Assembly (NCBI RefSeq): GCF_000258515.1
Contig: NZ_AJLF01000001.1
Location: forward strand, 744,001 to 808,000
Direction: 5' to 3'
Source of the DNA: Thermococcus zilligii AN1
GTDB lineage: Archaea > Methanobacteriota_B > Thermococci > Thermococcales > Thermococcaceae
DNA: 64,000 nucleotides
The stretch's first letter is position 1; the number at the start of each line of letters is the position of its first letter. Positions 52,073-58,144 of this stretch are shown here, in pieces. The notes beneath the pieces were generated by a model. The model was not told the origin of the DNA and ran no database searches. It saw only the letters and a program-made list of their open reading frames with translations. A program made the translations under genes and the position numbers.

Positions 52073-52235
52073 GGTTTCGTTCGGCGTGGATTCTTTCTGG
52101 GCATCAGTGCTCAAAACCCCTTTTAATTCCCTACGGTGAGAACTGGAAGAAATTGAAAGGACATTGGTGGCGTTTCCGCAACATTTATTTATCTGCTTTC
52201 CCACTAAACATCGAACTCCCGCTGAGGTGATACGC

Positions 52236-54941
52236 ATGAAATCGAAAAAGGCCGCATTAGTCCTTTTGCTGTTGGGGGCAGTTCTGTTATTTGCCTCTGG
52301 AGCAAGCGCTCAGGAAAGCCCCTACTACTACGTCAAAACCTACGGTGGTTCGGGATGGGACAGCGGTAATGCCATGGCCATAGCCCCAAACGGCGACGTT
52401 ATAGTCGCGGGCTACACGGAGAGCTTTGGCTCGGGCAAAGGCGACGCCCTGATAATGAGGCTTGACCGCCAGGGGAAGGTAAAGTGGGCGAAAACCTACG
52501 GCGGAAGCGGTTACGACTGGATTAACTCGATAGCTGTGGACTCCAGGGGAAACATAGTGGCGGTTGGCTACACGACGAGCCTTGGGGATGGTTCCGAGGA
52601 TCTCTGGATCCTCTATCTGGACGAAAACGGAAGCGTTAAGTGGCAGAAGGCAGTTGGCGGCAGTAAGACCGACGTTGGAAACGCGGTTACCATAGCACCC
52701 AATGGGGATATAATAGTGGTCGGGCAGACTGAAAGCTTCGGTGCCGGCTGGAGTGACCTCTGGGTTCTTCGCTTCGGTGCCGATGGGAGCCTTAAGTGGC
52801 AGAAGACCTACGGTGGAAACGACGACGATGCTGGCACTTCGGTTGTCGTTGCTCCCAACGGGGACATAATCGTTGCCGGCTACACCCTGAGCTTTGGAAC
52901 AGGCTTCCAGGACGTCTGGGTTCTTCGCCTGGATCAAAACGGAAACATCCTGTGGGAGAAGAGCTACGACCTGAACTCCAACGAAGATGCCGCGAACTCC
53001 GTCTCAGTCACTTCCGGCGGCCAGATAATCGTTGCGGGCTACACCTCGGATATTAACGACAAGAATGCCCTTCTAATGAAGCTTGACGGAAACGGGAACC
53101 TCCTGTGGGCCCGCACTTACGGCGGAAACAGGGACGATGAAATTAATTCCATAGCCATTACCCCGGCCGGCGACATATTGGCCGTAGGAGGTACCTACAG
53201 CTTTGGTCTGGGCGGAGAAGATTCCTGGGTTATAATGCTCGACGGAAATGGCTACCTCAAATGGTCAAGGACATACGGTGGGGTTTCGGACGAATACTTC
53301 TCCAGCGTAGCTGTCGAAAACGATTCCACCGCAATTCGTCTCGCTGGAACCACCTGGAGCTTCGGTGCATCCGGCGACATCATGGTTCTTGCCATACCCC
53401 TTGATGGGAACCTTCCGAACTGCGGCTGTGGACTTTCACAGAACCCGCTGCTGGCCAGTGTCCAGCCGAGCCTTGCAACCACGAGGGCTCAGGTTTCAGT
53501 GCCACCGGTGAGCCCCCAGCCCACGGCGGTGGTTCCAAAAGATGTCACCGGGAACATTGGGGTGAACAACCTCTACTCTTCCGCGACGCTTTCAGTTGAA
53601 TCCACTCCCCCTGGGGCAACCGTTTACGTAAACGGAACCCGGATCGGGACAACACCCCTGCAGACGTTCCTCCTCCCGGGAACTTACGAAGTTAGGGTCA
53701 GCATGCCCGAGTACGAGGACTACGTGACCACCGTAACGCTCTATCCCGGTGAGAGCAAGACTCTGAGCGTTACCCTAACGCCGACCTTTGGCTTCCTGAC
53801 GGTCTACTCCAACCCTGCCGGGGCCAGGGTTTTCATCGATGGCTCCTACATTGGAGACACCCCGATTGAGAATTACAAGCTCTCAGTCGGGCAACACTCC
53901 CTGAAAGTGACAAAAGAGGGCTATTATGATTACACGACGACTGTGACGATAAATCCGGGGCAAACTACCACAATCAACGCCCAGCTCAACCCCCGGCCGG
54001 CAAGCTTAACGATAGACTCAAACCCCGCGGGGGCTGAAGTCTATCTCAACGGAACTTACATGGGAACAACACCGCTCAGCATTAATGTCCCCCCCGGAAC
54101 TTATGAAGTAAGACTTAGCATGCCCGGGTACGCTGACTATGTGACCAGCGTGACACTCAACCCCGGGGAGGTTAGAGTGATAAACGCGGCCCTTGTTCAC
54201 TACCCGGTTCTTTCTGTTGAGTCAAACCCAACCGGGGCTCAGGTTTACATCAACGGGTCCTACGCAGGCGATACACCGCTTACACTAACCCTCCTCCCGG
54301 GAACTTACGAAGTTAGGGTCAGCATGCCCGAGTACGAGGACTATGTAACCACCGTAACGCTCAATCTTGGTGAGAGCAAGACTCTGAGCGTTACCCTAAC
54401 GCCGACCTTTGGCTTCCTGACGGTCTACTCCAACCCCGCTGGCGCTGAAGTTTACCTCAACGGCACGCTAATTGGAGCAACCCCAGTTGAAAACTACAAA
54501 GTCCACGTTGGAACCTACGTGCTTAAGGTTGCTAAGGACGGGTACGAGACTTATTACGCGTCTGTAACAATCGAGCCCGGAAAGACTGCGATCGAGAACA
54601 TAACCCTCAAGCCGGTGGGGATCACTACAACGACTACAACTACCACCACAACCGCTACCACAACTCACACGACCACTACTACAACCACAACGACCACATC
54701 TCCAGTTACCACAACCACCACTGCACCCACAACAACTACCACTACGACCCAGCCCACCACCACAACCACTACCACAACTACTACGACGACCACTACAACC
54801 AAGCCAACCACGACTACCACAACGACCACCACTACCACTACGACAAGCAAGGGAGGGGGTGGAGTTGGAACAGCGGCGATAATAGCTGTGGTGGTCATAA
54901 TTGGCCTGGCTGCGGCACTGTTCCTCCTGCGGAGGAAGTGA
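52236..54941 (+). CDS. Surface protein: seven-repeat propeller, five PEGA domains, Thr stalk, C-terminal anchor
   Basis: The 901-residue protein has a signal peptide (AALVLLLLGAVLLFASGASA), then seven repeats of about 52 residues (KTYGGSGYDWINSIAVD type, ending in KW or LW), the number expected for one beta-propeller. Five PEGA domains follow (SNPAGAEVYLNG and LPGTYEVR motifs) to about residue 795, then a Thr-rich stretch of about 75 residues, and a C-terminal helix AAIIAVVVIIGLAAALFLLRRK. It should stand on a stalk outside the cell, possibly glycosylated on threonines, and bind a polymer or another surface protein. GAGGTGATACGC precedes ATG 52236. Confidence 0.88.
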   Translation: MKSKKAALVLLLLGAVLLFASGASAQESPYYYVKTYGGSGWDSGNAMAIAPNGDVIVAGYTESFGSGKGDALIMRLDRQGKVKWAKTYGGSGYDWINSIAVDSRGNIVAVGYTTSLGDGSEDLWILYLDENGSVKWQKAVGGSKTDVGNAVTIAPNGDIIVVGQTESFGAGWSDLWVLRFGADGSLKWQKTYGGNDDDAGTSVVVAPNGDIIVAGYTLSFGTGFQDVWVLRLDQNGNILWEKSYDLNSNEDAANSVSVTSGGQIIVAGYTSDINDKNALLMKLDGNGNLLWARTYGGNRDDEINSIAITPAGDILAVGGTYSFGLGGEDSWVIMLDGNGYLKWSRTYGGVSDEYFSSVAVENDSTAIRLAGTTWSFGASGDIMVLAIPLDGNLPNCGCGLSQNPLLASVQPSLATTRAQVSVPPVSPQPTAVVPKDVTGNIGVNNLYSSATLSVESTPPGATVYVNGTRIGTTPLQTFLLPGTYEVRVSMPEYEDYVTTVTLYPGESKTLSVTLTPTFGFLTVYSNPAGARVFIDGSYIGDTPIENYKLSVGQHSLKVTKEGYYDYTTTVTINPGQTTTINAQLNPRPASLTIDSNPAGAEVYLNGTYMGTTPLSINVPPGTYEVRLSMPGYADYVTSVTLNPGEVRVINAALVHYPVLSVESNPTGAQVYINGSYAGDTPLTLTLLPGTYEVRVSMPEYEDYVTTVTLNLGESKTLSVTLTPTFGFLTVYSNPAGAEVYLNGTLIGATPVENYKVHVGTYVLKVAKDGYETYYASVTIEPGKTAIENITLKPVGITTTTTTTTTTATTTHTTTTTTTTTTSPVTTTTTAPTTTTTTTQPTTTTTTTTTTTTTTTKPTTTTTTTTTTTTTSKGGGGVGTAAIIAVVVIIGLAAALFLLRRK
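53669..53815 (+). repeat. 147-base direct repeat in the PEGA region (with 54290-54436)
   Basis: Bases 53669-53815 and 54290-54436 are nearly identical (about six mismatches in 147), offset by 621 bases, exactly three PEGA units. The other PEGA units are much more diverged, so this is a recent duplication or gene conversion. Confidence 0.85.
54290..54436 (+). repeat. 147-base direct repeat, second copy
   Basis: Second copy of the repeat at 53669-53815. It encodes the end of PEGA unit 4 and the start of unit 5. Confidence 0.85.
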
Positions 54942-55037: not shown

Positions 55038-56183
55038 GTGTTCAACGTACTCGTGGTCAGATACGGGGAGATCGGAACGAAGTTGAGGCAGGCGAGGAGA
55101 TGGTTCGAGAACCTGCTCATGAACAACATCCGCGAGGCCCTGGTTAGCGAGGGGATTGATTTCAAGAAGGTCGAAGCCAAGCACGGCCGCGTTCTGGTGA
55201 GGACGAACAGGGCAGAAGAAGCCGTTGAGGTTCTCACAAGGGTCTTCGGAATAGTCTCGCTCTCGCCGGCAATGGAAGTTGACGCCGAGATGGAGAAGAT
55301 AAACAAAACGGCCCTCAAGCTCTTCAGGAAGAAGAAGCGCGAGCTCGGGCTTGAAAAGCCTAAATTCAGGGTCACCGCGAGGAGGATAACCAAGGAGTTC
55401 CCACTCGAGAGTCCGGAGGTTCAGGCGAAGGTCGGTGAATACATCCTCGAGAACGAGGAGGGCGAGGTTGACCTGCACAACTATGACATCGAAATTGGAG
55501 TGGAGCTGATGGAGGGCAGGGCCTATATCTACGTCGACAAAATCCGGGCCTGGGGCGGCCTGCCGATAGGGACGCAGGGTAAGGTCGTGGCCCTGCTGAG
55601 CGGCGGCATAGATTCTCCTGTGGCCGCTTTCCTCATGATGAAGCGCGGCGTCGAGGTGATCCCGGTCCACATCTACATGGGCGAGAAAACCCTCGAGAAG
55701 GTCAGAAAGATATGGAACCAGCTGAAGAAGTACCACTACGGCGGAAAGAGCGAGCTCATCGTTGTGAAACCAAAGGAACGCGAAGAAATCATCCAGAAGC
55801 TCAGGGAGATGAAAAAGGAGAATTACACCTGCGTCTTCTGCAAGTTCATGATGGTGAGGAACGCCGACAGGATAGCAAAAGAATTCGGCGCCAAAGGCAT
55901 TGTCATGGGCGACTCCCTCGGCCAGGTGGCCAGCCAGACGCTCGAGAACATGTACATCGTCAGCCAGGCGAGCGACCTGCCTGTATACCGCCCGCTCGTA
56001 GGCATGGACAAGGAGGAGATAGTCGAAATAGCCAAGAAAATCGGCACCTTCGAGCTCTCCACCCTTCCCGAGGATGAGATACCCTTCATACCGGAGCACC
56101 CGGTCATAAGGGGCTCGTGGGAGGAGTTTAGGGAACTCTACAAAGCGATATTTGGAGAGGAGCCAAAGAAAAGGGAGTGCTGA
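55038..56183 (+). CDS. thiI: tRNA sulfurtransferase ThiI
   Basis: The 381-residue protein has an N-terminal ferredoxin-like region, a THUMP domain (about residues 60-165) and a PP-loop ATPase domain with LLSGGIDSPVAAF (about residue 188), the cysteine pair CVFCK, and MGDSLGQVASQTLENM. There is no rhodanese domain; archaeal forms use a [4Fe-4S] cluster. It puts sulfur on uridine 8 of tRNA. The GTG start at 55038 has GGGTGATA. Confidence 0.92.
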   Translation: MFNVLVVRYGEIGTKLRQARRWFENLLMNNIREALVSEGIDFKKVEAKHGRVLVRTNRAEEAVEVLTRVFGIVSLSPAMEVDAEMEKINKTALKLFRKKKRELGLEKPKFRVTARRITKEFPLESPEVQAKVGEYILENEEGEVDLHNYDIEIGVELMEGRAYIYVDKIRAWGGLPIGTQGKVVALLSGGIDSPVAAFLMMKRGVEVIPVHIYMGEKTLEKVRKIWNQLKKYHYGGKSELIVVKPKEREEIIQKLREMKKENYTCVFCKFMMVRNADRIAKEFGAKGIVMGDSLGQVASQTLENMYIVSQASDLPVYRPLVGMDKEEIVEIAKKIGTFELSTLPEDEIPFIPEHPVIRGSWEEFRELYKAIFGEEPKKREC

Positions 56184-56786: not shown

Positions 56787-57380
56787 ATGAAGGCGGTCGC
56801 ACTCCTAAGCTCGGGCATCGACTCACCGGTCGCTATTTACCTCATGCTCCGAAAAGGGCTGGAGATAACGCCCCTTAACTTCAGGCAGAGCCCTAAAAAG
56901 GAGTCCAAGGTGATGGAGCTATACGAAATCCTCAGGCGCTACGGAAAGCTCAACGAGCCCATATTCGTTGACGCCTACGAGGAGCAGGGGCCCGTTTTTT
57001 CAAAGCTCGCCGAGCTGGGAAAGGTCAAGTGGACGTGCCTCTTCTGCAAGTGGACGATGGTGAGAAAGGCCTGCGAGATGGGGCACCAGATTGGGGCGAA
57101 GGCAATAGTGACTGGAGATTCCCTCGGCCAGGTCGCTTCCCAGACCCTCGACAACCTGGCCATAATAAGCTCCGCCAGCGATCTGCCGATACTGAGGCCC
57201 CTCATAGGGATGGACAAGGAGGAGACAGTCCGGATAGCCAAGGAAATAGGAACGTTTGATGTCAGCATAAAGCCTGAAGAGCCGTGCCCCTTCGTGCCGA
57301 AGTATTCCATCGTGAGGGGCTCCCCCGGCGAGTTCCTCAGGATAAAGGAAGGGCTCGTGAGGGAGGGCGTTCTCCGATAA
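56787..57380 (+). CDS. Stand-alone ThiI-like PP-loop protein (no THUMP)
   Basis: The 197-residue protein is essentially a second copy of the ThiI catalytic domain: start ALLSSGIDSPVAIYLML, the cysteine pair CLFCKW, TGDSLGQVASQTLDNL, and LRPLIGMDKEETV, all lined up with thiI one gene upstream. Without THUMP it probably acts on a different substrate or needs a partner. Its TATA-like element is near 56757. Confidence 0.82.
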   Translation: MKAVALLSSGIDSPVAIYLMLRKGLEITPLNFRQSPKKESKVMELYEILRRYGKLNEPIFVDAYEEQGPVFSKLAELGKVKWTCLFCKWTMVRKACEMGHQIGAKAIVTGDSLGQVASQTLDNLAIISSASDLPILRPLIGMDKEETVRIAKEIGTFDVSIKPEEPCPFVPKYSIVRGSPGEFLRIKEGLVREGVLR

Positions 57381-57418
57381 AACCACAAGCTTTTATACCT
57401 CTCCCCCAAACTTACAAT

Positions 57419-57634
57419 GCCCCTGCGCGAGGACCCCGGGGAGAATGAACCGGGGGGCGATGCGGGGGCTACAGCCCGGTCTCAGCGAGGTCCTCGCGGG
57501 AGGGCCTTCCGCGTTACGGAGCACGATGACCGCGGGAAACCCAGACCGGGCACAGTTCTGGCCCGCCTGGGTTAACCCGTCCGATTCTGCCGTCTGGCTT
57601 GGATGAAGGCGGGGGTTACGGGCGGGCCACACTA
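57419..57634 (+). ncRNA. Three-hairpin H/ACA guide RNA
   Basis: Three hairpins, each closed by a perfect stem directly followed by ACA: GCCCCTGC/GCGGGGGC (57419-57426 with 57462-57469, ACA 57471), GCCCGGTCT/AGACCGGGC (57474-57482 with 57543-57551, ACA 57552) and GGCCCGCC/GGCGGGCC (57560-57567 with 57621-57628, ACA 57629). The loops contain kink-turn-like AATGA, GATGA and GATGA. A TATA box TTTTATA (57391-57397) is about 25 bases upstream. A three-hairpin H/ACA RNA is known in Pyrococcus (Pab35 type); this may be its homologue. Target sites not determined. It is convergent to rps27e. Confidence 0.82.
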
Positions 57635-57658
57635 ATCCAAGAGAAAGAAAGAAGAGGG

Positions 57659-57856
57659 TCACTCGAGAACTTCTAATACCTTAGCCTTGACTGTTCCCTT
57701 TCCGCCGGTTGGTTCGACGAGGGTGGCCCCGCAAACAAGGCACCTAACCTGTATCGCCGGGTTGCTGAAGACTATCTGCTCGTTTCCGCAGTCAATGCAC
57801 TTGACGCGGAGGAACCTACTCCTGGGCATGGGTATAAGGTTCTGCGGGAGGGCCAT
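57659..57856 (-). CDS. rps27e: Ribosomal protein S27e
   Basis: The 65-residue protein is a typical S27e: [19 protein letters not shown] and a zinc ribbon with CIDC and CLVC. It is 3 bases after the L44e gene and shares its transcript. Confidence 0.96.
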
Positions 57857-57859
57857 AGC

Positions 57860-58144
57860 TCATTCCTCCGTCATCTCAAACTTCTTAACGCGGAAGCCCT
57901 TTCCTCTCGGGTGGGCCTTGCCGCAGACGGTGCAGACGAACCTGAGGTCGAGCTTTTTGACTGGCTTTTCCCTTCCTGTCGGGTTCGGCCTCGGGAAGCC
58001 GCGGTAACCCTTCAGGATCCTGCGGAACCTCCTTTGACCCTGGCTGAGCTCGCTCCTTGGCCTCTTCTTGACCTTCTCGACCTTGTGGATCGTGTGCTTC
58101 CTACAAAACGGGCAGTAGGTCCTCATCTGCTTTGGGTACTTCAT
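57860..58144 (-). CDS. rpl44e: Ribosomal protein L44e
   Basis: The 94-residue protein is a typical L44e: [18 protein letters not shown], then basic [16 protein letters not shown] and a second pair CTVCGK, giving a zinc finger. GGAGGTGTAAGC precedes ATG 58144. It is the first gene of the L44e-S27e unit and has a long leader. Confidence 0.96.

Follow-up and report, generated by a model that had tools for sequence, protein, structure and literature searches.

An HgcG-type three-hairpin H/ACA RNA gene in Thermococcus zilligii and the predicted 23S rRNA targets of its hairpins

The stretch of Thermococcus zilligii DNA analyzed here (64,000 nt, hereafter the window) very probably (we put it at roughly 0.92) carries the archaeal H/ACA guide RNA HgcG as a stand-alone gene; the three hairpins of this RNA have predicted targets in 23S rRNA. 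The original prediction had proposed a homologue of the three-hairpin RNA of Pyrococcus and had suggested a covariance-model search. In this search (cmscan) the Rfam family RF00064, with a gathering cut-off of 77 bits, matched the locus at 57419-57634 with 202.4 bits and an E value of 2.1e-57 over model positions 1-276 of 276. The match spans 57370-57636 on the plus strand; as it starts at 57370, 49 nt upstream of hairpin 1 lie inside the model. At the gathering threshold the only other Rfam match in the window was one tRNA, identified by ARAGORN as tRNA-Pro. The fold of the region 57419-57634 has a stability z-score of -4.1, and none of 200 dinucleotide shuffles was as stable.

Family identity and distribution

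The whole-model match supports the suspected homology and identifies the locus as orthologous to the three-hairpin RNA that is known in Pyrococcus as HgcG, Pab40 or Pf7. In genome G004 the RF00064 match lies at 382332-382604, identical to the coordinates of Pab40 in the accessible text of PMC4652768 (382,332-604; the transcript is given as 382,389-622), and for this reason the orthologue L002 was taken as the P. abyssi gene. The likeness comprises the whole length of the covariance model, the three H/ACA hairpins and, as far as the targets are described in the accessible literature, the same sites for hairpins 1 and 3. In the accessible parts of two earlier papers, Pf7 is equated with HgcG and edited to three hairpins (PMC2241582) and is described as having three hairpins, each able to guide (PMC2584109). 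The family HgcG is already known and the RNA of this locus is itself ordinary and documented; the refinement of hairpin 2 described below is the sole part with some novelty. Membership in the family was tested and confirmed, and from it we infer a guide function in T. zilligii.

Of 94 Thermococcales genomes 88 had an RF00064 match above the cut-off, compared with none of 14 control genomes. All 74 Thermococcales genomes with a completeness of at least 90% and a contamination of at most 5% had it, and the six genomes without a match have listed completeness values of 61-80%. The 87 orthologues that were fetched and the window together gave 88 distinct sequences for the ortholog alignment; a set of 36, hand-picked from these for diversity, was used for some of the comparisons. 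Of 21 genomes that belong to the same class but lie outside Thermococcales, none gave a match to separate models of hairpins 2 and 3, which were run without a positive control. Second matches to HgcG below the threshold occurred in 15 genomes. Paralogues of HgcG were considered and rejected for the three of these 15 that were examined (L096, L097 and L098), all of which were HgcE (Pab105); the RF00064 model cross-matches another multi-hairpin H/ACA RNA.

HgcF (Pab35, Pf6; RF00058) and HgcE (Pab105, Pf3; RF00060) are likewise multi-hairpin H/ACA RNAs of Thermococcales. HgcF, which is also described as three-hairpin in the accessible text of PMC2241582, is encoded by a gene separate from that of HgcG (G000:C1:566452-566623). 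According to the literature descriptions accessible to us, Afu4.3 of A. fulgidus and the haloarchaeal HP2 are related to hairpin 3, and the haloarchaeal HP1 (Psi2621) is related to hairpin 2.

Architecture and covariation of the three hairpins

As set out in the accessible text of PMC4652768, productive H/ACA motifs follow a '10/5/9' plan with 14-15 nt between GA stem and ANA box. All three motifs of the locus fit this plan, with a lower stem of nine steps, a 3' guide of 5 nt and a GA stem of ten steps that ends in sheared G.A (Table 1). In hairpin 1 the nine steps consist of eight plus an unpaired U, the same lower stem as that text gives for Pab40.1. The distance from the first base of the 3' guide to the ANA box was 14 nt in all 88 sequences for hairpins 2 and 3 and in 87 of 88 for hairpin 1, where the remaining sequence had 15. 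An ANA box was present at all three positions in 88/88 sequences; boxes 1 and 2 were ACA throughout, box 3 was ACA in 50 and AUA in 38. The three stems with a following ACA were located correctly from the start, and only their description as perfect goes slightly too far, since hairpins 1 and 3 each contain a U.G pair.

The kink-turn-like loops noticed at the outset correspond to GA/UGA elements in all three hairpins. The K-loop of hairpin 1 read GA-N2-5-UGA in 73 of 88 sequences, the UGA being present in all of them. In hairpin 2 the K-turn had the pairs G.A and A.G in 67/88 sequences, a first pair G.G or A.A in 20 and U.A in one. In hairpin 3 it had G.A and A.G in 60/88 and variants in 28, one of them again U.A. 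The tenth step of the GA stem is A.G, C.A and A.G in hairpins 1, 2 and 3 of the window, and the seventh is G.A in hairpin 1 and C.A in hairpin 3. The seventh step of hairpin 1 is non-standard in most sequences (G.A in 69/88), which is why only 85.4% of the cells of this GA stem were paired.

Few parts of HgcG are as conserved as the pockets. Invariant in the 88 sequences were 6/6 and 4/5 columns of the 5' and 3' guides in hairpin 1, 9/10 and 5/5 in hairpin 2 and 5/6 and 4/5 in hairpin 3. The variable parts are the stretch that leads from hairpin 2 to hairpin 3 and comprises the ACA box (57552-57559, mean entropy 1.10 bits) and the apical loop of hairpin 3 (0.99). By analogy with the known family, L7Ae would bind each K-turn or K-loop, Cbf5, Nop10 and Gar1 would dock on each stem and its ANA box, and each pocket would pair with the 23S rRNA sequences flanking a U, which Cbf5 would isomerize.

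Table 1. Features of the HgcG locus in the window
Feature	Position	Strand	Comment
HgcG / Pab40 / Pf7 H/ACA sRNA, whole gene	57419-57634	+	RF00064 match; P. abyssi transcript mapped through alignment
TATA-box-like element TTTTATA	57391-57397	+	Inferred promoter, 22-28 nt upstream of inferred 5' end
Hairpin 1 (Pab40.1)	57419-57473	+	Predicted target own 23S U2592
Hairpin 1, lower stem	57419-57426/57462-57469	+	8 bp including U.G 57424:57464
Hairpin 1, guides	5' 57427-57432; 3' 57457-57461	+
Hairpin 1, upper stem	57434-57439/57450-57455	+
Hairpin 1, K-loop	GA 57441-57442; UGA 57446-57448	+
Hairpin 1, ACA	57471-57473	+	Preceded by unpaired U after lower stem
Hairpin 2	57474-57554	+	Pab40.2 by inference; predicted target own 23S U2682
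Hairpin 2, lower stem	57474-57482/57543-57551	+	9 Watson-Crick bp
Hairpin 2, guides	5' 57483-57492; 3' 57538-57542	+
Hairpin 2, GA stem	57493-57499/57530-57536	+	Covariation; RNAalifold consensus
Hairpin 2, K-turn sheared pairs	57500.57529; 57501.57528	+
Hairpin 2, apical hairpin UUCCG-CGUUA-CGGAG	57507-57521	+	10/15 columns invariant
Hairpin 2, ACA	57552-57554	+
Hairpin 3	57560-57631	+	Predicted target own 23S U2020 (helix 69)
Hairpin 3, lower stem	57560-57568/57620-57628	+	8 Watson-Crick bp plus U.G
Hairpin 3, guides	5' 57569-57574; 3' 57615-57619	+
Hairpin 3, GA stem	57576-57582/57607-57613	+	57582:57607 C.A in window
Hairpin 3, K-turn sheared pairs	57583.57606; 57584.57605	+
Hairpin 3, ANA box	57629-57631	+	ACA in window

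The stems are supported by related genomes, contrary to the refuting case named in the original prediction. Cells in which both sides had changed with the pair being kept were found in all six stems of the 88 sequences: 8 and 78 in the lower and upper stem of hairpin 1, 91 and 38 in those of hairpin 2 and 18 and 43 in those of hairpin 3, and each of these counts was equalled by 0 of 300 column shuffles. The number of further pair types clearly exceeded the shuffles only in the upper stems of hairpin 2 (2/300) and hairpin 3 (0/300). It did not do so in the lower stems of hairpins 1 and 2 (300/300 each), the upper stem of hairpin 1 (55/300) and the lower stem of hairpin 3 (82/300), nor for hairpin 2 in the 36-sequence set, where 321 of 500 shuffles were as high. 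Both measures count sequences, not evolutionary events. In the same 36 sequences 98.4% of the cells of hairpin 2 and 97.8% of those of hairpin 3 were paired, a level reached, like the covariation score, by 0 of 500 shuffles; when the partners were slid by 1-3 columns, at most 57.8% of the cells paired. The pair 57496:57533 was GC in 46 of the 88 sequences, AU in 25, UG in 7, GU in 6, CG in 2 and another combination in 2, which requires 14 changes of pair state on a tree that was itself derived from this RNA.

Predicted rRNA targets and the fold of hairpin 2

For each pocket, the U residues of 23S and 16S rRNA from the host genome, P. abyssi and a third genome (G092) were scored as potential targets. 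The top sites were equivalent in all three species, namely U2592 for hairpin 1, U2682 for hairpin 2 and U2020 for hairpin 3 (host, Rfam match numbering), in line with the early suggestion that the RNA could guide several pseudouridines. For hairpins 1, 2 and 3 the observed score was reached by 5, 0 and 1 of 100 shuffles in the host, by 0, 0 and 1 in P. abyssi and by 2, 0 and 0 in G092; these counts are somewhat optimistic because two registers were tried per hairpin and the fitting ones used. Taken alone, the target of hairpin 1 is weakly significant (5 of 100 shuffles in the host). The sequences of the target sites are identical in the four 23S rRNAs compared, and the duplex of hairpin 2 with U2682 requires a one-base bulge in the target.

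In P. abyssi, the sites of hairpins 1 and 3 have the Rfam positions 2614 and 2042, which with an offset of 26 equal the published 2588 and 2016; the site of hairpin 2 (2704) therefore corresponds to 2678. Hence the predicted sites in P. abyssi numbering are 2588, 2678 and 2016, two of them in domain V and one in helix 69. The site of hairpin 2, a prediction from its conserved pocket, presumably equals H. marismortui Psi2621 and E. coli 2586, a placement that relies partly on the E. coli sequence. For hairpins 1 and 3 the scan agrees with what is accessible of the literature: L2588 is given for P. abyssi and U2592 proposed for T. kodakarensis as the target of hairpin 1, and L2016 is published as that of hairpin 3 (PMC4652768, PMC2584109) and was modified in vitro by Pab40 (PMC2584109). 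T. kodakarensis has a homologue of Pab40, Tko1, and its Psi2592 is reported to be lost without Cbf5, Nop10 or Gar1; U2592 is also the best site of hairpin 1 in the window. Position 2678 had been raised before for Pab40 as an alternative structure, and Psi2678 is reported to be absent in P. abyssi (both in the accessible text of PMC2584109).

Two further complementarities may be mentioned. The 5' guide strand of hairpin 2 from 57483 to 57491, CAGCGAGGU, is a perfect 9-nt complement of 23S 2593-2601, which begins one base after the target U of hairpin 1. Other antisense matches of 8-9 nt between HgcG and rRNA exist and were listed without a chance expectation.

Hairpin 2 is the part in which our alignment departs from existing descriptions. 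Its K-turn stem was paired in 99.2% of the cells of the 88 sequences (with the double-sided changes given above), and the GA stem was recovered unaided in the RNAalifold consensus fold of the 36 sequences. The Rfam fold has two inner hairpins instead, of which P2a was paired in 80.7% and P2b in 68.1% of the cells. In the eight sequences of the P. abyssi genus these two were paired in 39/40 and 70/72 cells, and the K-turn stem in 56/56. We therefore rejected the Rfam fold as the structure of the whole order: its stems are kept within Pyrococcus only, whereas the K-turn fold is kept outside this genus as well. In the accessible part of PMC2241582 the Rfam structures of most such H/ACA RNAs are called inaccurate.

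Taken as single sequences, 73 of the 88 hairpins 2 form the K-turn stem at minimum energy. For the window alone, the minimum at 37 C was -44.3 kcal/mol with other inner hairpins, versus -34.0 for the K-turn fold. These other hairpins were also rejected; they were paired in 86.4% and 91.5% of the cells of the 88 sequences, with 0 double-sided changes. Our assumption is that what decides the fold is not bare energy but the binding of L7Ae together with selection. The 5' pocket strand of hairpin 1 (57427-57435) can be paired with 57489-57497 of hairpin 2, perfectly so in the window and in 84.6% of the cells of the 88 sequences, but this pairing had 0 double-sided changes and was equalled or exceeded by 300 of 300 shuffles; it was discarded as a consequence of the similarity between the two guide strands.

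Could hairpin 2 be a structural or protein-binding module instead of a guide? In the RNAalifold consensus the two strands of its invariant pocket are predicted to pair (GGU with ACC and one more pair), and these pairs are invariant in 36/36 sequences. The apical hairpin points the same way: UUCCG-NGUNN-CGGAG is nearly invariant in the 88 sequences and shows no covariation, unlike the apical loop of hairpin 3, and such conservation may mean that it does more than hold the K-turn. That Psi2678 is reported to be absent in P. abyssi would fit as well. Yet the spacing, K-turn and ACA box of hairpin 2 are canonical, and the best rRNA score of its pocket was reached by none of the 100 shuffles in each of three species. 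Moreover, guide strands for this site are partly complementary by necessity, because the target flanks GGGUU and GACC are partly complementary themselves. We thus consider a module of this kind unlikely and continue to read hairpin 2 as a guide.

A guide it may be, but the site published for Pab40.2 is another one. The experiments on the motifs of Pab40 are reportedly those of Muller et al. 2008. In the accessible text of PMC4652768, Pab40.2 (Pa40.2) is assigned to L1932 with an unusual guide strand of 23 nt; a footnote to Table 1 there cites in vitro data of earlier work, and the methods split Pab40 into two motifs, yet Pa40.3 is named as guiding L2016. We equate Pab40.2 with hairpin 2 on account of the AACCC guide, which matches the L1932 site, and of the length of the strand. 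If hairpin 2 guided U1932 (P. abyssi numbering) and not U2678, it would do so through another fold with a long unpaired 5' strand. In P. abyssi the complementarity is good on both sides, the 3' guide AACCC matching the GGGUU before U1932 and the 5' strand, up to the base aligned to 57501, forming eight contiguous pairs with the sequence on the other, 3' side. In the other 87 sequences the same register of the 5' strand gives one pair, and at most four are found anywhere in the strand examined. Together with the incomplete pairing of P2a and P2b across the 88 sequences, this makes U1932 a distinctly improbable target for hairpin 2 of the order as a whole. Hairpin 2 of the window lacks the complementarity to U1932 seen in P. 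abyssi, and it retains the G of the K-turn that P. abyssi has lost.

The two differences come together at one position. The base aligned to 57500 is U in P. abyssi (L002) alone and G or A in the other 87 sequences, and this U turns the first sheared pair of the K-turn into U.A. Since both the eight-pair match and the change in the K-turn are confined to P. abyssi, the published target is perhaps real but peculiar to this species and the conserved target perhaps U2678. A possible interpretation, which we hold tentatively and at less than even odds, is that hairpin 2 across Thermococcales is a K-turn guide for P. abyssi position 2678 (E. coli 2586) and that in P. abyssi a single G-to-U change both altered the K-turn and created the 8-bp match to U1932. 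Retargeting in P. abyssi alone would fit the reported absence of Psi2678 there. Its odds are lowered, as regards the K-turn, by the U.A pair that also occurs in one K-turn of hairpin 3 and by first pairs other than G.A being common. In the accessible parts of the open-access literature we found no statement that the match to L1932 is confined to P. abyssi.

Genomic context and implications

The hairpin array begins 38 nt after an ORF on the same strand with a ThiI domain (56787-57380, Pfam PF02568), and a convergent S27e/L44e pair lies downstream of HgcG on the minus strand (57659-58144). For 30 of the 88 loci flanks of up to 1.5 kb per side were compared, and these neighbors were not conserved (L44e at 2/30, S27e at 2/30 and the ThiI ORF at 3/30 loci). 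In 86 of the 88 sequences a loose regular expression detects a TATA-like string 20-34 nt ahead of hairpin 1, and in the alignment the published transcript start of P. abyssi maps to 57419, the first base of hairpin 1. Hence, despite the ThiI-domain ORF just upstream and the convergent ribosomal-protein ORFs beside it, readings of the stems as a transcription terminator, an element of a UTR or inverted repeats in the DNA without relation to H/ACA RNA can be dismissed, being contradicted by the element's own TATA-like string, the unconserved flanking genes, the RF00064 score and the compensatory changes.

According to the accessible literature, transcripts are reported for the orthologues of P. 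abyssi and T. onnurineus, and in the T. kodakarensis transcriptome seven H/ACA RNAs were detected, HgcG not being among the names given in the accessible text (PMC4247193).

Some of the surrounding genes deserve a remark of their own. The ThiI-domain ORF encodes 197 aa with this domain only, and an ORF with a DUF998 domain separates it from a full-length ThiI (55038-56183, plus strand, 381 aa) with ferredoxin-like, THUMP and ThiI domains. Further upstream, an ORF of 925 aa (52164-54941, plus strand) has, by eye, repeated similar segments, a threonine-rich stretch and then a C-terminal hydrophobic segment, as in a surface protein.

If the predictions for the three pockets are true, a single RNA specifies three pseudouridines, all of them located in functional regions of the large subunit. 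It may matter that the fold and the target of hairpin 2 as taken from P. abyssi and from Rfam, whose structure fits only the P. abyssi genus, do not hold for the remaining Thermococcales. Should the retargeting of hairpin 2 be true, the biochemical assignment in the model species would describe a retargeted guide the specificity of which was switched by a single substitution, and P. abyssi would offer a natural example of a guide that acquired a new target in this way.
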